DNA of 31,574 nt from a virus. Location: the IMG/VR virus record IMGVR_UViG_3300036781_000512, positions 1-31,574 of that record. One strand, 5' to 3'. How positions within the stretch are numbered: the stretch's first letter is position 1; every line of letters begins with the position of its first letter. Made by a program: the position numbers and the translations under genes. Below are positions 3,455 to 16,449 of the stretch, in pieces. The notes beneath the pieces are model-generated. The model was not told the DNA's origin, did not search any database, and was given only the letters and a program-made list of their open reading frames with translations.

Positions 3455-4856
3455 GACTGATCCGAAAAAACGGCTCACGGCGGCAGAGCTCGCCAAGGAA
3501 GACCTGTATTTCTTCAGCCGCTGGATGTTCAAGGAGCGGAAGGGATACCGCTGGATTCGTGGCCCTCATCACCATCTGATCTGCGATGCGCTGATGCGCG
3601 TCTACCGCGGCGAGTGCAGGCGGCTGATCATCAACGTGCCGCCACGGTACTCGAAGACCGAACTGGCGGTCGTGAATTTCATTGCCTGGTCGATGGGCCA
3701 GGTGCCGGACGCGGAATTTATCCACGCCAGCTACGCGGCGCCACTGGCGATCGAGAACAGCTCGAACGTCCAGAGCATCGTCCAGCACGAAGCCTACCGG
3801 GAAATATTCCCGGAATGTGAGCTTGCGTCCGACGCCAAAAGCCACTGGAAGACGACCAAGGGCGGCGTGATGTACGCGGCCGGCGCCGGCGGCACGATCA
3901 CCGGCTTCGGGGCGGGCAAGCACCGACCCGGCTTCGGCGGCGCGCTGATCATCGACGACCCGCACAAGCCTGATGAGGCCAAGTCGGAGAAGATCCGCCA
4001 GGGCGTCATCGAGTGGTTCCAGAACACGCTGGAGTCCCGGAAGAACAGCCCGGACACGCCGATCATCCTGATCATGCAGCGGTTGCATGAGAAGGACCTG
4101 GCGGGCTGGCTGCTCGGCGATAGGAAAGACGGCAAGCCTGAGGCAGGCGGCAACGGCGAAACGTGGGATCACCTGTGCCTCTCCGCGATTACGGACGACG
4201 GCGAGGCCTTGTGGCCGGAAAAGCACTCCCTCCCAGTACTGGAGCGGATGGAGCGGGCCAATCAGTACGTGTTCTCCGGCCAGTACCGGCAGCGGCCTTC
4301 CCCGCCTTCAGGTGGAACGTTCAAGCCGGCCAACCTGGTGCCGGTCGATGTCCTGCCGGCGGTCAAGATCAAGTGGGTGCGCGGTTGGGACTTCGCGGAC
4401 TCCACCAAGGGCGACTACACGGTAGGCGGAAAGCTCGGCAAGTTGCCAGACGGCCGCTTCATCATCGGGCACGTCGAGCGCGACCGTGCCGTGACCGACG
4501 CGCGCGACAAGCTGCTGGTGAACACCACCAAGGCAGACGGCAAGGGCATGGTGCAAAGCATCCCCCAGGATCCGGGCCAAGCCGGCAAGGGCCAGGTGCA
4601 CTACCTGACCAAACAACTCGCGGGCTACCGCGTCAAGTCCTCGCTCGAGAGCGGCGACAAGGAAACGCGGGCCGATCCCTTTGCCTCCCAGGTCAACGTC
4701 GGCAATGTGCTGATCCTCAACGGCCCCTGGAATCAGGCGCTGAAGGACGAAATGACGCTCTTCCCGAACGGAGAGTACGACGACCAGGTGGACGCGCTCT
4801 CCCGCGCCTTTGCCGAACTTATGCAGGGCAAGCGATCGATTTTCGAGGATATCTGA
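3444..4856 (+). CDS. terL: Terminase large subunit (packaging ATPase/nuclease)
   Basis: A 470-residue motor protein that pumps DNA into the prohead and cuts it. The ATPase half shows a Walker A-type loop, PPRYSKTE at residues 66-73, and Walker B, ALIIDDPHK at 167-175. A coupling-type motif LIMQRLHEKD follows near 209-218. The nuclease half has the expected acidic residues: D316 in GWDFADS, D377 in PQDPG, and the YDDQVDA cluster at 445-451. The length is normal for the family. The start is GTG 3444, inside the end of terS, consistent with translational coupling. The stop overlaps the portal start by one base (TGATG). Confidence 0.95.
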   Translation: MTSETDPKKRLTAAELAKEDLYFFSRWMFKERKGYRWIRGPHHHLICDALMRVYRGECRRLIINVPPRYSKTELAVVNFIAWSMGQVPDAEFIHASYAAPLAIENSSNVQSIVQHEAYREIFPECELASDAKSHWKTTKGGVMYAAGAGGTITGFGAGKHRPGFGGALIIDDPHKPDEAKSEKIRQGVIEWFQNTLESRKNSPDTPIILIMQRLHEKDLAGWLLGDRKDGKPEAGGNGETWDHLCLSAITDDGEALWPEKHSLPVLERMERANQYVFSGQYRQRPSPPSGGTFKPANLVPVDVLPAVKIKWVRGWDFADSTKGDYTVGGKLGKLPDGRFIIGHVERDRAVTDARDKLLVNTTKADGKGMVQSIPQDPGQAGKGQVHYLTKQLAGYRVKSSLESGDKETRADPFASQVNVGNVLILNGPWNQALKDEMTLFPNGEYDDQVDALSRAFAELMQGKRSIFEDI

Positions 4857-7766: not shown

Positions 7767-9545
7767 ATGCGTCGCACTCGCTCCAAGGCCCGGCAGGCCA
7801 AAAGTCTGCTCTCGGCCTGGGGGCGCTTGGGTATCGCGCTCGATCGCGCGGACTCGAAATCGCCGGTGGCGGCAGGCATCGCCTACGTCACCGGCTCCAA
7901 AGTGCTGTTGATCCAGCGCGGCAAGGACACGAAGGCCTATCCCGAAACCTGGTCATTCCCCGGCGGCCATATCGAGCCCGGCGAATCGCCGGACGTCGCG
8001 GCCGCGCGCGAGAGCTATGAGGAGATCGCGCATTTCCCCGAAAACCTGACGCCCGTCGTCGGCGATGGGGTCTTCGCGCTCTTTGCCTGCAAGGGTTCCG
8101 AGTTCACACCCATCCTGAACGAAGAGAGCCTGCAGTACGCCTGGGCCGACTACGGCGCACTGCCGGCCCCGTTGCATCCTGGTGTTGCCGAGCAGTTGCA
8201 GGCCGTGATCGCGAAGTTCGCGCCGGCCAGCGCGCAGGACAAGCGCGACACCGACATCAACGGCTACGCGACGATCCCGGACAACCCGCTGTCCAAGGTT
8301 GGCGTCTTCGAATACCGGGGCTCCCAGATCCCGGATGCCCCGGACAAGGACGCGGTCTACAAGGTCTACCGTCCCGCCGAAGAACTCGGCAGCAAAGAGA
8401 CCGTCGACAGCTTCAAGCTCAGCCCGTGGATCGACAACCACGTCATGCTCGGCAGCGAAGACGAAGGCCTCACCCCTCCCGAGAAAAAGGGTGTCCAGGG
8501 CGTCATCGGCGAGGACGTCTACTTCAAAGACGATGTCCTCTACGGCAACCTGCGCGTCTTCTCCCAGGCGATGAAGAGCGCGATCGACAAGCAAGGCAAG
8601 CGCGAGCTGTCCTGCGGCTACCGCTGCCGATACGAAGCCACCCCCGGCACCTATAAGGGGCAGGCGTACGACTACATCCAACGCGAAATTCGCGGCAACC
8701 ACCTAGCTCTCGTTGACGAGGGTCGGATGGGGCCGGAAGTGGCGGTGCAAGACCAGGCCGACCGCTTCGTATTCACCTGTGATTCATCTTCCTTTCAATC
8801 CTCTGAGGTAAAAAACATGGATATCTCTTCCAGCGCCACTCCTGGCGGCGGCGCGACCGGCGAAGTGACGCTGGAAAGCGTCGTCGCTCAACTCAACGCA
8901 CTCGTCAAGGCCGTGGCCATGCTGAAAAGCGCCCAGGGCGGCGCCGATCCGGCGAACCCCAATGCCGCGGCCGACCCGGTCGCCGGCGATGACGACGATG
9001 CGGACCCCGACATGGCCGGCGATGCCGACCCGATGTCGAAGCTCAGCAAGACCGTCGACGCGTTGTGCGCGCGCATGGACGCCTACGAAAGCAAGGGCGG
9101 CGCGGCTGATGGCAGCACCGACATGCCTGGCACCGGCGATCCGAATCCGAAGCCCGCCAAGGACGACCCGGCTGGCACCAACAAGGGTGACGGCGCCGTG
9201 CTCGAAACCGCAGCCACCAAAGCCGCCCCGGCCGCGATGGACGCCAAGGCCATGGACGCCGCTGTCGAAAAGCGCGTCCGCGAGTCCCAGGCGGCCATCG
9301 TCGCGAAGACGGGCCTGTACGACCGTGTCTCCAAGTTCGTCGGCGCCTTCGATCACTCGCTGCTGCTCACCGAGGCCGAGGTTGCGGGTTATGCCTGCAA
9401 AAAGCTGAAGCTGACGCCGGCCAAGGGCGCCGAACTGGCGACCCTCAACGGCTACCTGCACGGCCGTACGCCGGACTCCAAGGCGCCTGTCGCCGCGATG
9501 GACGCCGCTGCGTCTCCCGACTGGCTCAACGCGCAAATCGCCTAA
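7767..9545 (+). CDS. Nudix domain - DUF2213 prohead protease - scaffold fusion
   Basis: A 592-residue three-part protein. Residues 35-150 are a Nudix hydrolase domain with an almost complete Nudix box at 67-86: G, five residues, E, seven residues, RE, two residues, EE. The usual final Gly is missing (Ile-Ala follows). Residues 160-345 match the DUF2213 prohead protease family (NPLSKVGVFEYRGSQIPD, ELSCGYRCRYE, NHLALVDEGRMGPEVAVQD). Residues 351-592 are acidic, Ala/Pro-rich and helical, the character of a capsid scaffold. The protease would mature the prohead and remove the scaffold. The role of the Nudix part is unknown; it could act on nucleotides or be a structural add-on. Confidence 0.88.
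   Translation: MRRTRSKARQAKSLLSAWGRLGIALDRADSKSPVAAGIAYVTGSKVLLIQRGKDTKAYPETWSFPGGHIEPGESPDVAAARESYEEIAHFPENLTPVVGDGVFALFACKGSEFTPILNEESLQYAWADYGALPAPLHPGVAEQLQAVIAKFAPASAQDKRDTDINGYATIPDNPLSKVGVFEYRGSQIPDAPDKDAVYKVYRPAEELGSKETVDSFKLSPWIDNHVMLGSEDEGLTPPEKKGVQGVIGEDVYFKDDVLYGNLRVFSQAMKSAIDKQGKRELSCGYRCRYEATPGTYKGQAYDYIQREIRGNHLALVDEGRMGPEVAVQDQADRFVFTCDSSSFQSSEVKNMDISSSATPGGGATGEVTLESVVAQLNALVKAVAMLKSAQGGADPANPNAAADPVAGDDDDADPDMAGDADPMSKLSKTVDALCARMDAYESKGGAADGSTDMPGTGDPNPKPAKDDPAGTNKGDGAVLETAATKAAPAAMDAKAMDAAVEKRVRESQAAIVAKTGLYDRVSKFVGAFDHSLLLTEAEVAGYACKKLKLTPAKGAELATLNGYLHGRTPDSKAPVAAMDAAASPDWLNAQIA
8817..9545 (+). CDS. Nested in-frame scaffold protein (internal start)
   Basis: An in-frame ATG at 8817 is preceded by ctctgaggtaaaaaac, a strong ribosome site in an unusually AT-rich patch inside a very GC-rich gene. 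Initiation here would give a 242-residue protein equal to the C-terminal part of the protease gene. That part contains coiled-coil-prone helices, long acidic Asp/Ala/Pro stretches (DDDDADPDMAGDADP) and a folded C-terminus (LYDRVSKFVGAFDHSLLLTE). Lambda C/Nu3 and herpesvirus protease/scaffold genes use the same logic. The internal start is inferred from sequence only. Confidence 0.65.
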   Translation: MDISSSATPGGGATGEVTLESVVAQLNALVKAVAMLKSAQGGADPANPNAAADPVAGDDDDADPDMAGDADPMSKLSKTVDALCARMDAYESKGGAADGSTDMPGTGDPNPKPAKDDPAGTNKGDGAVLETAATKAAPAAMDAKAMDAAVEKRVRESQAAIVAKTGLYDRVSKFVGAFDHSLLLTEAEVAGYACKKLKLTPAKGAELATLNGYLHGRTPDSKAPVAAMDAAASPDWLNAQIA

Positions 9546-9575: not shown

Positions 9576-10316
9576 ATGTTCCAATCGACTGTGAACGTCC
9601 TGCAGGGCTTCGGCAAACCCGGCCAGGTCTTGACCGAAGGCCCGTCCCGCGCGGAGCCCCTGATCGCCAATTCGTACTTGGCGCTCGGCGGCAACAACAA
9701 CGGCGTCGGCCTCGCGTACACCAAAAATGCCGCCACCGGCCAAGCTATCGTCGGCGGCTGCCCCAGCCAAGGCGCGTCCGTCACCGGCTCGATCGCGGGT
9801 ACCGTGCTCACCGTCACCGCGGTCGGCTCCGGCGCCCTGTCCGTCGGCATGGCGATCAGCGGCGCCAGCGTCACCGCGGGCACCGTGATCACCAAGGTCC
9901 TGACCCAATCCGGCGCTGCCGGCGGCGCCGGCACCTACCAGGTCTCGGTCGCTTCGACCGCCTCCAGCACCACGATCACCGGTACCGGCAAGTTCGTCTT
10001 CGCCGGCATCCTGATCCACAGCAACCGCTACAAGTTGTCGGGCACGACCGCCGGCGGCCTCGCGCCGCAGTTCTACATCTTCGACAACGAGGACGGCGAA
10101 TTCATGACCATGGGCGATGTCTGCATCGCGCTCGCCAGCGTCGGCAGCATCGGCGACCAGCTGCAGTACGAAGCAGCCAGCGGCAAGATCTCGGCGGTTG
10201 CCCCCGGCGGTTCTGCCAGCAACGGCAACACGCTGATCCCGAACTCGACGCTCTACCGCTACCCGGTGACGGTGAGCGGTGACCTGAGTGTTGCCCGCCT
10301 GACCACCCCGGCCTAA
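9576..10316 (+). CDS. Structural cement (head decoration) protein, Gp24-like
   Basis: A 246-residue capsid surface protein located between protease/scaffold and major capsid protein. The flanks match cement proteins of this phage type: an N-terminal part through EGPSRAEPLIANSYLALGG, then FAGILIHSNRYKLSG, and LYRYPVTVSGDLSVARLT at the end. Residues 69-138 are an inserted Gly/Thr/Val-rich beta domain between AIVGG and KFVFAGIL; the same domain recurs in the sheath protein. A strong ribosome site (taggagaaaaag) precedes ATG 9576. The gene ends 16 bases before a terminator hairpin that separates it from the capsid gene. Confidence 0.82.
   Translation: MFQSTVNVLQGFGKPGQVLTEGPSRAEPLIANSYLALGGNNNGVGLAYTKNAATGQAIVGGCPSQGASVTGSIAGTVLTVTAVGSGALSVGMAISGASVTAGTVITKVLTQSGAAGGAGTYQVSVASTASSTTITGTGKFVFAGILIHSNRYKLSGTTAGGLAPQFYIFDNEDGEFMTMGDVCIALASVGSIGDQLQYEAASGKISAVAPGGSASNGNTLIPNSTLYRYPVTVSGDLSVARLTTPA
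9780..9989 (+). repeat. Inserted beta domain, copy 1 (in cement protein)
   Basis: This encodes about 70 residues starting VTGSIAGTVLTVTAV and containing SGASVTAGTVIT and GGAGTYQV. Aligned by eye with the sheath copy (14782-14973), 25 of the first 40 residues are identical, while the DNA has diverged. The domain interrupts an otherwise continuous cement protein fold at a surface loop, so it is a module acquired independently of the host protein. Confidence 0.8.
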
Positions 10317-10332
10317 ACCAACTCACCCCAGT

Positions 10333-10361
10333 AAAGCCCGCTTCGGCGGGCTTTTTCTTTT
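10333..10361 (+). terminator. Hairpin with UUCG loop and T-run between cement and capsid genes
   Basis: GCCCGC at 10336-10341 and GCGGGC at 10346-10351 enclose the very stable TTCG tetraloop and are followed by CTTTTTCTTTT. It is a textbook intrinsic terminator, yet it lies inside the late operon 13 bases before the ATG of the major capsid gene. It could lower read-through or cap the 5' end of a processed capsid mRNA. Confidence 0.8.
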
Positions 10362-10373
10362 GGAGAAACGAAA

Positions 10374-11498
10374 ATGCAGAAGTCCAAAGAGCACTCCCAC
10401 CTGGGTGGCCGCAAACTCGAGGCGCTCGCGCGCGAGCGGAAGTCGGCCATCACCATGGATGCCAAGAACGTCGAGAACTATCTCGCGCTGGCGAAAGTCG
10501 GTATCGGTTTCGATTCGAAATTCATCGCCGAGGCCATGGCCTACGCGATGGACGACGTCCAGACCGGTGTCACCACCTTCAACGTCGGCACACCGGTGCA
10601 GTTCCTGCAGGCATGGCTGCCCGGCTTCGTCCGCGTCGTCATGGCGATCCGCGCGATCGACGAACTGGTGGGCATCAGCACCATCGGCGCCTGGCACGAC
10701 GAAGAGGTCGTGCAAGCCATCGTCGAAAACTACGGCGACGCCGTGCCCTACGGCGACTACTCCAACGTGCCGCTGGCCGACTGGAACGTGAACTTCGATC
10801 GCCGCACGATCGTGCGCTTCGAAAAAGGTATGCAGGTCGGTGCCCTGGAAGAAGCCCGCGCCGGCGCAATGAAGCTGAACGATTCCGCCGAAAAGCGCAC
10901 GTCCGCGGCCCAGGCCCTGGATATCCAGCGCAACCTCGTCGGCTTCGTCGGCTACAACAGCGGCGCCAACCGCACCTACGGCTTCCTGAACGACCCCAAC
11001 CTGCCGAACTACCAGAACGTGGCCACCGGCGCGGCGTCTTCGACCACCTGGCCGAACAAGGTGTTCCTGGAAATCGTGGCGGACATCCGCACCGCCCTGG
11101 CCACCCTGCAGAGCCAGTCGCAGGGTGTCGTCGATCCGATGAAGGCCCCGATCACCCTGGCGGTTCCGACGGCCAAGGCGCAGTACCTGACCATGGTCAG
11201 CCAGTTCGGCAATTCGGTGATCGACTGGATCAACAAGACCTACCCGAACGTGCGTATCGTCAATGCGCCGCAGTTCACCGGTGCAAACGGTGGTGCTGAC
11301 GTCATGTACGCCTACGCGGAAGAGGTCAACGACAGCGCAACCGACGACAGCCGCGTCTGGGTGCAGCCGGTGCCCTCGAAGTTCCAGGCCCTGGGCGTCC
11401 ACAAGACGGCCAAGTCCTATATCGAGGACTACACGAACGCCACGGCGGGCGTGATGTTGAAGCGCCCGTATGCCGTGACCCGCTGGTCCGGAATCTAA
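10374..11498 (+). CDS. Major capsid protein, DUF2184 family
   Basis: A 374-residue HK97-fold capsid protein that forms the head shell. Family-like segments include NVGTPVQFLQAWLPGFVRVV, IGAWHDEEVVQAIVENYGDA, and the C-terminal ALGVHKTAKSYIEDYTNAT followed by RPYAVTRWSGI. The region with NRTYGFLNDPNLPNYQ is also typical. It has its own strong ribosome site (ttggagaaacgaaa) after a terminator hairpin. A second hairpin follows the stop, so this gene is bracketed by structures that may set its high dose and mRNA stability. No cleavage propeptide is obvious; the first 40 residues are basic and could be trimmed. Confidence 0.9.
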   Translation: MQKSKEHSHLGGRKLEALARERKSAITMDAKNVENYLALAKVGIGFDSKFIAEAMAYAMDDVQTGVTTFNVGTPVQFLQAWLPGFVRVVMAIRAIDELVGISTIGAWHDEEVVQAIVENYGDAVPYGDYSNVPLADWNVNFDRRTIVRFEKGMQVGALEEARAGAMKLNDSAEKRTSAAQALDIQRNLVGFVGYNSGANRTYGFLNDPNLPNYQNVATGAASSTTWPNKVFLEIVADIRTALATLQSQSQGVVDPMKAPITLAVPTAKAQYLTMVSQFGNSVIDWINKTYPNVRIVNAPQFTGANGGADVMYAYAEEVNDSATDDSRVWVQPVPSKFQALGVHKTAKSYIEDYTNATAGVMLKRPYAVTRWSGI

Positions 11499-11514
11499 GC
11501 CACAACGCAGCCTT

Positions 11515-11543
11515 GGGCGCGCCTGCGCAATAGCGCGCCCCTT
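11515..11543 (+). terminator. Hairpin downstream of major capsid gene
   Basis: GGGCGCGC at 11515-11522 pairs perfectly with GCGCGCCC at 11533-11540, followed by the short pyrimidine run CTTTC. The stem is strong but the T-run is weak, so it may be a partial terminator or a 3' stabiliser of the capsid mRNA. Confidence 0.55.
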
Positions 11544-11564
11544 TCATCCTCAAAGGAAACGAAC

Positions 11565-11996
11565 ATGCATTACATCATCTCATCGCTCGCCAACGGGCAA
11601 GACTTTCATCTCTACGGGGAAATCCGCGCTGAAGACTCGCGTAACGGCATGAGCCCGCCGATTCTCAAGACGGTCCGCATCAAGGGCGGCGCCGGCCTGG
11701 CCGACAAGGCTCTGCATACCCCGCACGGTGTTGTGACGCCGGTTACCGACGAAGAGTTGGAAGCGCTGCAGAAGATTCCGGCTTTCGTGTCCTTCGAGAA
11801 GTCGGGCCACTTGGTGGTCGAGAAGTCCGATAGCGAGCCGTCGGGTGACAAGTTCGCGACCGAGATGGGGACCGATCGCGGCTCGCAGCCGCTTTCGCCG
11901 GCCTCTTACAAGGACAAGGACGCCAGCGCTCCCGAAGTGCTCAGTGTCACCGACAACACCTCATCCAAGAAAGGGCGCGGCCGCCAAGGCGCCTAA
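11565..11996 (+). CDS. Hypothetical head-region protein
   Basis: A 143-residue protein with a good ribosome site (caaaggaaacgaac). The N-terminal 90 residues look folded (MHYIISSLANGQDFHLYGEI, then GVVTPVTDEELEALQKIPAF and GHLVVEKSDSEP). The C-terminal 50 residues are polar, disordered and end in a basic tail (KKGRGRQGA). Genes of this kind often follow the capsid gene in this phage type and may encode a minor head or head-fibre-base protein. I recognise no family, and the role is inferred only from position. Confidence 0.65.
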   Translation: MHYIISSLANGQDFHLYGEIRAEDSRNGMSPPILKTVRIKGGAGLADKALHTPHGVVTPVTDEELEALQKIPAFVSFEKSGHLVVEKSDSEPSGDKFATEMGTDRGSQPLSPASYKDKDASAPEVLSVTDNTSSKKGRGRQGA

Positions 11997-11999
11997 ACG

Positions 12000-12452
12000 A
12001 TGGACATCCCGACCTTCCGTGCGCAGTTCCCGGCATTCGCGGATTCATCCGCCTATACCGACCAGCTGATCACGATCTGGTACGGGTTTGCCCAGCAATA
12101 CCTGTCCGAAGGCTGGGCACTCAACGGCGCCCGGTACGACTTGGCGGTTCAGTTGATGACCGCGCACCTGATCATCCTCGCCTACCCGACTCCGCCCGGC
12201 CTTACCGGCGCGGCGGCCGGCACTGGCGGCGCGCAGATCGCCGGCGGCCCCATCACCGGGGCGACGGAGGGTGGCGTCAGCGTCACGATCGCGCCGCCAC
12301 CGGTGAAGACCGCGTGGCAGCAATGGCTGGCTGGCACGCAATACGGTCTTCAGTTGTGGGCGCTGCTGCGCATTGCTGCGGCCGGCGGGCTGTACGTTGG
12401 CGGTTTGAACGAGCGCCAGGCATTCCGGCGGGCCGGCGGCGCGCAGTTCTAA
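12000..12452 (+). CDS. Head-tail connector protein, DUF4054 family
   Basis: A 150-residue protein with the DUF4054 pattern: it opens MDIPTFRAQFPAFADSSAYT, continues with a helical block (ARYDLAVQLMTAHLIILAYP), has a Gly/Ala-rich middle, and ends in the conserved WLAGTQYGLQLWALLR. In phages with DUF2184 capsids this gene is the first neck gene after the capsid and is annotated as a head-completion or adaptor protein. It starts 3 bases after the preceding stop. Its TAA overlaps, tail to tail, the stop of the minus-strand zinc-ribbon gene. Confidence 0.82.
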   Translation: MDIPTFRAQFPAFADSSAYTDQLITIWYGFAQQYLSEGWALNGARYDLAVQLMTAHLIILAYPTPPGLTGAAAGTGGAQIAGGPITGATEGGVSVTIAPPPVKTAWQQWLAGTQYGLQLWALLRIAAAGGLYVGGLNERQAFRRAGGAQF

Positions 12453-12685
12453 AGCATCGTCTTGCCGAGGGCGAGGATTTCCGTCAATTGCCGGATCGCC
12501 TCACCGAACTCCGCCTCGTTCAGGTCGATGACTGTCTGGCACCGCGGGCACTCGGCGAACAGGGTGTCGCGCTGCAACTGCGCGAACTCGTCAATGCGCC
12601 GCCAAAAGCGAAACGTACAGCGGCCGCACTCGAGGGGAATCTCCTCGTCAAGCACAGCCTTTGGTACGTCGGAGAAATCGATCAT
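12449..12685 (-). CDS. Small zinc-ribbon protein on the opposite strand
   Basis: A 78-residue protein beginning MIDFSDVPKAVLDEEIPLEC. It has two Cys pairs, CGRC and CPRC, about 28 residues apart with an aromatic and charged linker, then a helix (EFGEAIRQLTEILALGK). This is a convincing zinc ribbon, and the plus strand here encodes nothing credible. The gene exactly fills the gap between two neck genes: its ATG (12685-12683) overlaps the ATG of the next plus-strand gene by two bases, and its TAG overlaps the stop of the DUF4054 gene. No clear ribosome site precedes it on the minus strand. It would be antisense to the late transcript. A regulator or host-interacting factor is possible; the role is unknown. 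Confidence 0.6.
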   Translation of the reverse strand: MIDFSDVPKAVLDEEIPLECGRCTFRFWRRIDEFAQLQRDTLFAECPRCQTVIDLNEAEFGEAIRQLTEILALGKTML

Positions 12686-13244
12686 GGCGGAAACGTTTAA
12701 AAGTCTGTCGAAGCAGATCGAGCGAATTGCCGCGAAATTTGACGCAAAAGCTGAGGAATTCGGCAAAAAAGAGGTAAGAGTCGGCGTCCTCGAAGGCCTG
12801 TACGAGGACGGCACCTCTATCGCCTACGTAGCCGCCATTCAAGAATTCGGCGCCCCAGAGGCAAAGATACCACCGCGGCCATTTTTCCGCCCGACCATCG
12901 CGGCACACAGCGCTGAATGGGGGGAGGCTCTGGCCGATGGCGCAGCGCAGGTTATCGCCGGCGAGGCTGACGTGGAAACCGTGCTCGGCCAACTTGGCGC
13001 GGATGCCGCCGGCCAGATTCAGAAGACGATCAGCGAGATCACGGCGCCGGCCCTGTCGCCCATCACCGTGATGCTGCGCGGCATGCGCAAGAACAATCCG
13101 GACCTCAAGGTCGGCGGCAAGGTGGTGGGCGAGGCCGCCCAGCGCGTTGAAGATGGAAAGACCAACTACGGCGCAGACGACAAGCCCCTGAACGATTCGG
13201 GCCTCATGCAGCAACACATCATCCACCTGGTGGTCGACAAATGA
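12684..13244 (+). CDS. Neck/tail completion protein, HK97 gp10-like type
   Basis: A 186-residue protein. The stretch VRVGVLEG...IAYVAAIQEFGAP...IPPRPFFRPTIA (about residues 32-72) is the hallmark of the gp10/minor tail protein Z/virion morphogenesis group. Those proteins join head to tail or complete the tail. A helical second half contains VMLRGMRKNNPDLKVGG, and the C-terminus is NDSGLMQQHIIHLVVDK. The start is ATG 12684 with ribosome site cggagaaatcgatc; the longer open frame upstream is a shadow of the minus-strand zinc-ribbon gene. The stop overlaps the next gene (ATGA). Confidence 0.8.
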   Translation: MAETFKSLSKQIERIAAKFDAKAEEFGKKEVRVGVLEGLYEDGTSIAYVAAIQEFGAPEAKIPPRPFFRPTIAAHSAEWGEALADGAAQVIAGEADVETVLGQLGADAAGQIQKTISEITAPALSPITVMLRGMRKNNPDLKVGGKVVGEAAQRVEDGKTNYGADDKPLNDSGLMQQHIIHLVVDK

Positions 13245-13639
13245 ATCTTCGCGGTCTCGCTAACTCCGCCACGCGGCGCGCGAACCCGAATCAGACGATC
13301 ACTTGGAAGCGCGCCACCGGCGTCATCACCCAGGATGCAGCGTACGCGCGCACGCCGCAGTACGAAACCGTGGTGCTTGAGGCCCAGGTCCAGGCGATCG
13401 ACGGCGAGGGTCTCCGGCGCGCCGAAGTCCTCGGCATCAGCGGGATCATGCGCACGGTCTTCATCTACGGAAACATGCACGGCATCGTCCGGACGGACAT
13501 GAAGGGCGGCGATCTGCTGAGCTTCCCTGAGCTGCCAGGCGAGGCGGACAAGTCGTGGAAGATATTCGATCAGGTCATGAACTGGAGCGGATGGAGTTCC
13601 GCTCACGTTGTCTTGCAGCCCAATGACGGCAACTATTGA
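13241..13639 (+). CDS. Hypothetical neck-region protein
   Basis: A 132-residue protein coupled by a four-base overlap to the upstream gp10-like gene. It contains ITWKRATGVITQDAAYARTP, a pattern of beta strands with VYLEAQVQAID-like spacing, and a Trp-rich end (KIFDQVMNWSGWSSAHVVLQ). Position and size fit a head-tail joining or stopper protein, as expected at this place between connector and tail terminator. No family is recognised with certainty. Its 3' end overlaps the next gene by 17 bases if that gene starts at 13623. Confidence 0.7.
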   Translation: MNLRGLANSATRRANPNQTITWKRATGVITQDAAYARTPQYETVVLEAQVQAIDGEGLRRAEVLGISGIMRTVFIYGNMHGIVRTDMKGGDLLSFPELPGEADKSWKIFDQVMNWSGWSSAHVVLQPNDGNY

Positions 13640-14198
13640 TATCACGGAGTCCACGGTCATGAAGGCCGTCGGCGACTTCCTGGTGTTGACGCTCGGGCTG
13701 GAGGTCGTCCGTGGCCAGGAGAACCAGACGCCGATGCCGCAGGGGCAGTTCGTCGCCATGACCTCGGGCACGATGACCCGCAAAGGCACGAATGTCCGCA
13801 CCTACGTTGATCCGGGCACGAACCCGGGGGCGATGAAAGCCCAGGCCACGCAGGAGGTAAGCGTCCAACTGGACGTCTATGGAAAAGACGCCCAGGCGAA
13901 CGCGAACATCCTGTCCACCCTGTTTCGGGACGGCTACGCGGTAGACGCCTTCCCCGCCGGCATCGCGCCGTGCTATGCCGGCGACCCCCAGCAGATCCCC
14001 CTGGTGACCGGCGAGGAGAACTGGCTGGAGCGCTGGAAACTCGATCTCGTGCTCTCGGTCGTGCCCACCGTCTCGGTGCCTCAGGACTTTGCTGACGAAC
14101 TGGAAATCGGAACCGCGGGCAACCCGGTGACGAAGAACACCCCGATCAACGGCCACCTCCCCTCTGTCGAGTGGAATGGCCTTCACCCGCTGAAATAG
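13623..14198 (+). CDS. Phage neck/tail terminator protein (gp12-like)
   Basis: A 191-residue protein of the family annotated in myoviruses as neck terminator (gp12-like, LIC_12616-type). The family signature is the start (TIDITESTVMKAVGDFL) followed by VVRGQENQTPMPQGQFVAMT near residue 40. Next comes the beta-rich QATQEVSVQLDVYGKDAQAN and PCYAGDPQQIPLVTGEENW. It caps the tail tube and sheath and joins them to the neck. ATG 13623 keeps the conserved N-terminus. ATG 13659 has a better ribosome site (cggagtccacggtc) but would lose the first 12 residues. Confidence 0.8.
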   Translation: MTATIDITESTVMKAVGDFLVLTLGLEVVRGQENQTPMPQGQFVAMTSGTMTRKGTNVRTYVDPGTNPGAMKAQATQEVSVQLDVYGKDAQANANILSTLFRDGYAVDAFPAGIAPCYAGDPQQIPLVTGEENWLERWKLDLVLSVVPTVSVPQDFADELEIGTAGNPVTKNTPINGHLPSVEWNGLHPLK

Positions 14199-14216
14199 CG
14201 GGTCTCCCCTTCCTGC

Positions 14217-14243
14217 ACAGCCGCCTTCGGGCGGCTTTTTCAT
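14217..14243 (+). terminator. UUCG hairpin terminator upstream of sheath gene
   Basis: AGCCGCC at 14219-14225 and GGCGGCT at 14230-14236 flank TTCG and are followed by TTTTTCATTT. The hairpin ends about 20 bases before the sheath ATG. Confidence 0.8.
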
Positions 14244-14256
14244 TTCTGGAGTCCCA

Positions 14257-15945
14257 ATGACCATCCCCGTCAGTCAGATCATCAGGATCAACCCCGCAGT
14301 GCTTTCCGCCGCGGGCTCGGCTGTGGACCTGAATGGCCTGATCCTCTCGCAAAGCACGTACACGCCGATCGGGAGCGCGCTGCCCTTCGCTGATGCCCCC
14401 AGCGTCCAGAGCTTCTATGGCGCCAATTCGGTGGAAGCCGCGATGGCGACCATCTACTTCAACGGCTACACGAACTGCACGAAGACCCCGGGCGCACTGT
14501 ATATCGCGCAGTACCCGGCCGTCGCCGTGGCTGCATGGCTGCAAGGCGCGTCTCTGGCCTCGATGACCCTGGCTCAACTGCAGGCTCTGGGCAGCGGCAC
14601 CATCGCGGTGACTGTCGACGGTGTGACTCGGACCTCCGCCAGCATCGCGCTTGGCGCCATCGGCAGCTTCAGCGCCGCCGCAGCGGCGATCCAAACCGCC
14701 CTGCCGGCTGTCACCTGCACTTTCGATTCGATCAAGAACGCGTTCATCCTGGACTCCCTCTCGGTCGGTACCGGCGCCGTGTTCACCGGCGCAATCGCCA
14801 CCACGGTCCTGACCGTCAGCGCGGTGACCTCGGGCACGATTCGTGTCGGCCAGGTTGTCAGCGGCGCCGGCGTGACGGCGGGAACGACCATCACCGCCCT
14901 GGGCACCGGCACCGGCGGCATTGGCACTTACACGGTCGGTACCAGCCAGACCGTTAGCAGCGAAGCCCTTTCCTCGGCTCCGTCGAGCATGACCGTCGCT
15001 GCCACCGGCGCGATCGCCACCGGCTTGGGCCTGACTGCGGCGGCTGGCGCCACCGTCTCCCAGGGCGCGGAAGCGGCGAACGCCAACACCTTCCTGAACA
15101 ACCTGATCAACTCGGTCACCCAGAACTGGGCCTTGTTCACCACGACCTGGGAGCCCAACCTTGCCGGCAAGGAGTCCTTCAGCGCGTGGGTCAGCGGCCA
15201 GAACAACCGCTATGCCTACGTTGGCGCCGATTCCGACCCGAACGCCAAGGTCGCGAACTCGCAGAACACCTGGGGCGCCTACCTCGTAAGTACCGAAAGC
15301 ACCGGCAGCGTGCCGTTCTTCGGCGACTACACCCATGCAGCGTTCGTACTGGGTTTTGCCGCCTCGCTGGACTTCGACCGCCTCAACGGCCGTGCCACCC
15401 TGGGCTTCCGCAACCAGGCCGGTCTGGCGCCTTCCGTCACCGATGCGACCTCGGCGCTCAACCTCAAGGCCAACGGTTACAACTTCTATGGCGCCTACGC
15501 CACGGCAAAACAGGAGCTCAACTTCGCCTACGCCGGCCAGATCAGCGGCGAGTTCGACTGGCTGGACACGTTCCTCAACCAGATCTGGCTGAACGCGAAC
15601 CTCCAACTGTCGCTGATCACCCTGCTGATGAATGTCGGCAGCATCTCCTACAACAGCGACGGCTACGGCCTCGTGGATGCCGCCTGCCTGGACCCGATCA
15701 ACGCGGCCATCAATTTCGGGGCGATCCGCAAGGGCACCACGCTGTCAGCGGAGCAGATCGCGGAAATCAAGTACGCCCTGGGCTTTGACGCCAGCCAGAC
15801 GATCATCACCAAGGGATACGTCCTGCAGATTCAGCCGGCCACGGCCGAAGTGCGCGCCGCGCGCGGCTCCCCGCCGATCACCTTGTACTACGCCGACGGC
15901 GGCAGCATCGAAGCCATCAACATGGCCTCCATCGCAGTTCAGTAA
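14257..15945 (+). CDS. Tail sheath protein, DUF3383 family
   Basis: A 562-residue contractile sheath subunit. The N-terminus matches DUF3383 (MTIPVSQIIRINPAVL, SAAGSAVDLNGLILSQS, FYGANSVEAAMATIYFNGY). The C-terminal core includes FDRLNGRATLGFRNQAGLAP, YNFYGAYATAKQELNFAYAG and GYVLQIQPATAEVRAARGSP. The conserved C-terminal arm that laces neighbouring subunits is present. Residues 176-239 are an extra beta domain that also occurs in the cement protein; it probably projects from the tail surface. The gene has its own ribosome site (ctggagtccca) after a terminator hairpin and is followed by another, so it forms a single-gene segment. Confidence 0.92.
   Translation: MTIPVSQIIRINPAVLSAAGSAVDLNGLILSQSTYTPIGSALPFADAPSVQSFYGANSVEAAMATIYFNGYTNCTKTPGALYIAQYPAVAVAAWLQGASLASMTLAQLQALGSGTIAVTVDGVTRTSASIALGAIGSFSAAAAAIQTALPAVTCTFDSIKNAFILDSLSVGTGAVFTGAIATTVLTVSAVTSGTIRVGQVVSGAGVTAGTTITALGTGTGGIGTYTVGTSQTVSSEALSSAPSSMTVAATGAIATGLGLTAAAGATVSQGAEAANANTFLNNLINSVTQNWALFTTTWEPNLAGKESFSAWVSGQNNRYAYVGADSDPNAKVANSQNTWGAYLVSTESTGSVPFFGDYTHAAFVLGFAASLDFDRLNGRATLGFRNQAGLAPSVTDATSALNLKANGYNFYGAYATAKQELNFAYAGQISGEFDWLDTFLNQIWLNANLQLSLITLLMNVGSISYNSDGYGLVDAACLDPINAAINFGAIRKGTTLSAEQIAEIKYALGFDASQTIITKGYVLQIQPATAEVRAARGSPPITLYYADGGSIEAINMASIAVQ
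14782..14973 (+). repeat. Inserted beta domain, copy 2 (in sheath protein)
   Basis: This encodes about 64 residues beginning FTGAIATTVLTVSAV and containing SGAGVTAGTTIT and GGIGTYTVGT. It is homologous to the cement protein insert at 9780-9989 (25 of 40 aligned residues identical). It lies in the surface-exposed middle part of the DUF3383 sheath, next to Ala-rich stretches. Confidence 0.8.
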
Positions 15946-15964: not shown

Positions 15965-15994
15965 AGCCCGCCGCGCGCGGGCTTTTGCTTTTTT
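15965..15994 (+). terminator. Hairpin terminator between sheath and tube genes
   Basis: AGCCCGC at 15965-15971 and GCGGGCT at 15977-15983 enclose a 5-base loop and are followed by TTTTGCTTTTTT. The T-run merges into the ribosome site of the tube gene. Confidence 0.78.
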
Positions 15995-16005
15995 GGAGGC
16001 CACAC

Positions 16006-16449
16006 ATGGCAAACCCGCAGACGATTACCAGCGCGAATTCCGCACTCACGCTGTCGGTCGCCAACCTCTTCCCGGTTCCCCAGTCGATCCAGGGCTTCGC
16101 CACCGACGCGATGTTCGATGGCGGTGATGTCGAAATCGCCGAAGGCAAGATCGGCGCCGATGGTCTCGCTGCCTACGGCTTCATCTTCAACCTGCAGACC
16201 CTGACCATTGAGCTGCTGGCGAACTCGCCGAGCCGGCAATTCTTCGCTGATCTCGTGAACGCCACCAAAGCCGCGCGCGAGGTCTATACGATCAACGGCA
16301 GCATTCTCGTGCCGTCGATCAGCATGAAGGTCACTCTGGTGAACGGCACGCTGAAGTCCTACCCGCCCTTCCCCGCCGCGAAGAAGACCTTGGAGGACGT
16401 GCGCTACGTCCTGATGTTCCAAGACATGCTCGAGGAAGCGACGGCGTGA
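16006..16449 (+). CDS. Tail tube protein
   Basis: A 147-residue protein placed directly after the sheath gene, the standard position of the tube subunit in contractile tails. Beta-rich segments (ALTLSVANLFPVPQSIQGFA, FIFNLQTLTIELLANSPS, ILVPSISMKVTLVNGTLKSY) suit the tube barrel fold. It ends with LEDVRYVLMFQDMLEEATA. The start is ATG 16006, which has a near-perfect ribosome site (ttggaggccacac). An in-frame ATG at 15985 lies within the terminator T-run and is rejected. The gene overlaps the chaperone gene by four bases. Confidence 0.85.
   Translation: MANPQTITSANSALTLSVANLFPVPQSIQGFATDAMFDGGDVEIAEGKIGADGLAAYGFIFNLQTLTIELLANSPSRQFFADLVNATKAAREVYTINGSILVPSISMKVTLVNGTLKSYPPFPAAKKTLEDVRYVLMFQDMLEEATA

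Follow-up and report, generated by a model that had tools for sequence, protein, structure and literature searches.

The capsid cement protein and the contractile tail sheath of an uncultivated phage each carry, as an insert, a copy of the same small domain, and no family in Pfam or NCBIfam covers the inserted stretch. We hold it slightly better than an even proposition that this domain, a relative of a free-standing decoration protein, has passed between virion proteins (of head, neck and tail) in numerous uncultivated phages and has also entered secreted bacterial proteins and a collagen-like protein of a giant virus, that it has done so repeatedly and into different loops of the same protein, and that it would thereby provide a uniform coat of the virion, either sticky or inert.

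Host genes and their context

The window, that is, the whole stretch of DNA analysed, is the 31,574-nt IMG/VR virus record IMGVR_UViG_3300036781_000512. It holds the structural module of a contractile-tail phage, with the head maturation protease, cement and major capsid proteins and, downstream, a sheath of the DUF3383 family. The features that concern us here are the following:

9576..10316, + strand: capsid cement (decoration) protein, 246 aa; Pfam PF22758, phrog_3645, PDB relatives E217 gp24 and Pa193 gp25 (by sequence and fold)
9774..9983, + strand: inserted beta domain, cement copy, aa 67-136; missing from the relatives of ~170 aa; predicted strands 67-86, 93-96, 104-111 and 119-137
10374..11498, + strand: major capsid protein, without a domain copy; Pfam PF09950, phrog_264
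14257..15945, + strand: contractile tail sheath, DUF3383 family, 562 aa; Pfam PF11863, PHROG 205, PDB relatives E217 gp31 and Pa193 gp32
14776..14976, + strand: inserted beta domain, sheath copy, aa 174-240, in the loop termed loop 2; missing from insert-free sheaths; AlphaFold2 model

The cement protein is a member of its family by score (30.5 bits against PF22758, Phage_cement, with a curated cut-off of 27), and its full-length model matches 8frs, 9b40 and 8hdt at E 1e-6 to 3e-4, as expected of the cement fold. The sheath matches DUF3383 over its full length (373 bits, E 2.6e-111, residues 5-558) and phrog_205, tail sheath, at E 6e-76.

Two neighbouring genes deserve mention in their own right. 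The head maturation protease (DUF2213, 7767-9545) has an N-terminal NUDIX hydrolase domain, a fusion that recurs, since phrog_3778 spans both domains (residues 34-579). The gene directly after the sheath (15985-16449) belongs to Pfam PF22764, which is titled 'Tail fiber protein gp32', whereas gp32 is the tail tube protein according to the paper on the E217 structure; the place of the window gene right behind the sheath fits a tail tube.

Two homologous copies of one domain

The preliminary description, made from the letters alone, had claimed a homology of about 65 residues between the two proteins, with 25 of 40 aligned residues identical. This is borne out, as the copies share 37 identical residues over about 70 (52-53%), with 27 of 41 in the first part. 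The local alignment (Smith-Waterman) scores 165, against 70 +/- 10 and a maximum of 124 in 2000 composition-preserving shuffles, and the profile of phrog_21413, built without the window copies, matches both (E 7.9e-13 and 8.1e-15). The conserved sequence of the domain reads GTxLTV, SGxLxVGQ, GTxIT and GGxGTY. A search of either strand of the window gave no third copy.

It was likewise correct that the DNA has diverged. The two copies are 60% identical at the DNA level and their longest common run is 11 bases, which makes a recent duplication unlikely. Nor does the wider family support recent duplication or homogenisation inside a genome, as copies in different proteins of the same phage are barely more alike than those of different phages (0.427 within against 0.420 between, for adaptor versus Hc3).

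Could two low-complexity segments rich in Thr, Ser and Gly resemble each other by composition, with no real domain behind the likeness? The composition of the domain is indeed biased, and cultured phages yielded no tblastn match to the sheath copy, probably because the low-complexity filter masks the query. Against this stand the alignment score far above the shuffles, the independent profile matches, confident all-beta models and Foldseek matches in predicted viral proteins, the best of them at 0.4-1.4 A across about 70 residues. We regard a composition artefact as exceedingly improbable and have set it aside.

Predicted fold and nearest structures

The sheath copy alone, modelled with AlphaFold2 from 108 sequences, is predicted to be all beta (pLDDT 89.5, pTM 0.73), with strands at 5-23, 30-34, 41-45 and 54-73 in domain numbering. 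The whole cement protein, predicted from 32 sequences, reaches pLDDT 86.4 and pTM 0.83, with a pLDDT of about 90 or more in the insert block. The strand pattern is the same in both copies, and the comparison of predicted structures that had been proposed as a check thus gave no sign of unrelated folds.

Both models independently retrieve the same solved structure, chain 1 of PDB 8eci (retrieved as 8eci_1), which is gp7, the decoration protein of Arthrobacter phage Bridgette. The model of the sheath copy matches it at TM 0.73 over 72 columns, 30% identity and probability 1.00, which amounts to a common fold. Like the cement host in the window, gp7 is a capsid surface protein; unlike the insert, it is a free-standing protein of 126 aa whose gene adjoins the major capsid gene. 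An hhalign comparison covers only 24 residues (54% identity, probability 47.5, E 1.9e-4). Common descent of the domain and gp7 appears likely, with an overall match that is weak (Foldseek E 0.06). When the PDB was searched with a profile of the domain, the matches were due to chance only, and gp7 was not among them.

None of the Ig, BIG2 or FN3 families of Pfam matches the inserted stretch in either window protein or in the other domain hosts, and no carbohydrate-binding module family of Pfam matches within it. Judged by the match list and the strand pattern, no immunoglobulin fold (a sandwich of 7-9 strands) is recognisable among the PDB Foldseek matches listed.

Empty sites and position on the particle

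Most cement relatives, of about 170 aa, and most DUF3383 sheaths, of about 500 aa, are without the domain. In the domain-free cement relatives the sequence joins directly across the insertion site; the domain is absent from 73 of 85 cement-family loci (some contigs being counted twice) and present in 8 of 32 cement relatives dereplicated at 93%. Among the matches listed, the DUF3383 sheaths of cultured phages that align end to end measure at most 1488 bp, which is too short to hold the domain; of the Acinetobacter sheaths, many gave partial alignments and were left out of this judgement. The solved members of both families, E217 gp24 and Pam3 gp6 for the cement proteins (PF22758) and E217 gp31 and Pa193 gp32 for the sheaths, are also free of it, and around the insert the cement model matches E217 gp24, Pa193 gp25 and the Pam3 and XM1 proteins. 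That each copy interrupts an otherwise normal family fold is therefore upheld, and the segment is not a general property of the two families.

Where the inserts lie on the particle can be judged from solved relatives. The cement insert follows directly after the stretch aligned to residues 58-75 of E217 gp24, the omega loop, which packs on the neighbouring subunit on the capsid exterior (PMC10329688). In the sheath, the alignment places the insert at about residue 180 of Pa193 gp32, in which residues 91-210 form a flexible domain outside the core (PMC11042391). Both inserts would thus lie outside the tube-contacting and shell-forming cores and be exposed on the surface. The earlier view of a surface module on head and tail receives indirect support from these alignments.

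Distribution across proteins

A scan of viral contigs yielded at least 348 relatives; as such scans are biased towards the query, these and the following counts are not frequencies. Genome scanning relied on the alignment of the two copies, a wide alignment of the domain being too variable for it. By family profile, the virion hosts comprise the XM1 gp53-type minor capsid protein, the SU10-type adaptor, the head closure protein Hc3, the tail terminator and collar or tail fibres, and further a capsid protein and a baseplate wedge protein. A number of hosts could be assigned to no family; those that could be assigned are virion or secreted proteins. Among predicted viral structures, a search by fold brings in side tail fibres, an HK97 capsid protein, a P22 gp10-type protein and, from the giant virus Indivirus, a collagen-like protein. 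At 55 of 122 loci the domain is shared by two or three distinct protein groups within one stretch, and many hosts carry tandem copies. The proposed search of phage proteomes has thus turned up relatives in minor capsid, neck, baseplate, fibre and capsid proteins and in secreted bacterial proteins.

Individual hosts illustrate the range. In Chitinophaga (locus L187, 5437-8514) the domain is borne by an FG-GAP/ASPIC protein sorted by the T9SS, and in Rhodocyclaceae (L188, 2740-6642) a secreted protein with DUF6701 and laminin-G domains has two tandem copies. The gene at 3770-4738 in MW202520.1 (L203) bears the annotation of a portal protein, but Pfam identifies its product as an SU10-type adaptor with an inserted domain, and the portal annotation looks wrong.

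Two existing clusters, phrog_21413 (unknown function) and phrog_38233 (tail fibre), include the domain in their profiles at about 396-468 and about 554-628, respectively; the former matches both window copies and the latter the sheath copy. These are clusters of whole proteins and not descriptions of the domain, and a Cupriavidus prophage protein matches phrog_21413 from end to end. With a less repetitive copy as the query, Sinorhizobium phages and two uncultivated records were found. The domain is easily found in uncultivated phages and seems scarce in culture collections, where a census is hampered by the low-complexity filter.

Mobility and evolutionary history

In the comparison of sheaths, the bodies were aligned with the domain removed. 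Most insert-bearing sheaths have one or two copies in loop 1, between a helix and a strand, whereas in the window, in a relative (L105) and in a prophage of Paraburkholderia elongata (L195) a single copy occupies the loop that follows, loop 2. The tree of sheath bodies nests the window and L105, with strong support, among insert-free relatives, and it shows four or more changes of the insert state. The body of the L195 sheath falls in another clade, and a single group of the three loop-2 bodies, named after the tree had been seen, is rejected (AU p 0.00035). The three loop-2 domains, on the contrary, group together (SH-aLRT 95) in a domain tree of 72 columns that is poorly resolved and of which only this small group is used. 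Between the window and L195 sheaths the domain is 75% identical, against 51% for the body and 38-49% for the flanks. The simplest reading of these trees and identities would be that the domain was transferred between distant sheaths, the alternative being repeated insertion from one donor pool.

The two window copies are not each other's closest relatives. The sheath copy is more similar to one in a head-closure protein (69%) than to the cement copy of the window, which ranks 129th of 202 at 53%. The cement copy also occurs in L083, L109 and L112, whose sheaths are without the domain, so the cement and sheath gains look independent. In L109 (1352-2311) the cement protein has two domain copies, of which the second seems to lie inside or directly after the first.

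Once present, the inserts can be kept. Between the window and L105 both remain at the same sites, while the bodies are 70-74% identical; dN/dS is 0.38 in each domain copy, 0.38 also in the body of the cement protein and 0.24 in that of the sheath. Read from these sequences, the inserts are under constraint, through function or folding. Overall, the suggestion that the module is mobile is well supported by its use of two sheath loops, the repeated changes on the tree, its exchange among sheaths that are only distantly related, and related copies in no fewer than seven further families of virion proteins.

Possible functions

The emerging proposal is that of one family of promiscuous all-beta domains, of about 70 residues, which would spread horizontally between phages and their outer virion proteins and lodge in the exposed loops of established virion components. 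Gained separately by the cement protein and by the sheath, of which E217 has about 180 copies per head and about 200 per tail, respectively, the domain would stud head and tail with a few hundred copies. Of the uses considered, that of an accessory surface domain is the most probable; it would provide weak, many-fold contact with bacterial surfaces or extracellular polymers, in the manner of the unrelated Ig-like domains. For such accessory adhesion as the use of the domain we see an even chance; this reading draws on the analogy with Ig-like domains and on the presence of the domain in secreted bacterial proteins. The binding of glycans or mucus, as suggested at the outset, is plausible by the same analogy with phage Ig-like domains.

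The composition of the domain bears on this proposal. In 241 copies, charged residues make up 2.6% (13.2% in the hosts), Thr, Ser and Gly together 49%, aromatics 4.7% and Trp 0.1%. With almost no charge, practically no Trp and few aromatics, a classical sugar-binding module of the aromatic-stacking kind is a poor fit. The conserved positions, mainly Gly, Thr and one Tyr, look structural, and the domain alignment contains no ligand-type motif or conserved polar cluster. This absence of a motif and a composition unlike that of classical sugar binders, along with the many relatives that manage without the domain, would argue against adhesion.

The same data invite the thought that the domain is a near-neutral passenger or inert spacer, an uncharged fold rich in Thr, Ser and Gly that exposed loops can accommodate, that is passed on through recombination among its copies and whose effect, if any, would be to prevent aggregation. 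Its very low charge, its patchy presence, the tandem copies in many hosts and a conservation that is not ligand-like would all agree with this. However, the dN/dS between the window and L105 is as low as in the cement body (folding constraint alone could suffice for this), the domain is kept in both proteins across 26-30% divergence of the bodies, and gains in virion proteins are recurrent. On balance we consider the passenger explanation rather doubtful.

A further possibility is that the domain is a stabiliser, which contacts its copies on neighbouring subunits and so cements the capsid and sheath lattices while touching nothing outside. The nearest solved structure, Bridgette gp7, is a capsid decoration protein that reportedly forms a dimer bridging hexons (PMC13033339), the cement insert sits just behind the stretch matching the omega loop, and sheath stabilisation has been proposed for additional sheath domains (PMC9230969). 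The domain, however, also occurs in neck rings, tail fibres and secreted bacterial proteins, where the geometry of neighbours differs and one lattice contact would not suffice, and most sheath and cement relatives assemble without it. Stabilisation is, in our estimate, unlikely, and accessory adhesion is the reading that we carry forward.

Comparison with Ig-like domains and implications

It has long been known that phage particles carry exchangeable Ig-like domains, and glycan binding has been demonstrated for some of them. They are promiscuous, exchanged horizontally and found on head, tail and fibres, and promiscuous surface domains of phage particles, extra sheath domains included, are an established idea (PMC9230969, PMC7602432); those on the capsid (MCP) and tail tube of Douge bind host glycans (PMC13033339). 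The domain described here resembles the Ig-like domains of phages (BIG2, FN3 and I-set, for instance those of T4 Hoc or of the Douge proteins) in being a promiscuous beta domain on the virion. It differs from them in having no match to an Ig profile, no Ig fold recognisable among the structures listed as matches, and another conserved sequence. No description of it was found in searches of the open-access literature. Apparently, it constitutes a second family of exchangeable virion surface domains, unrelated to the Ig-like ones.

The loops that receive the domain mark sites at which the cement protein and the sheath tolerate a folded domain. With different insertion loops in one protein, and empty sites nearby on the tree, the family offers a system for understanding how domains enter essential structural proteins without a failure of assembly.
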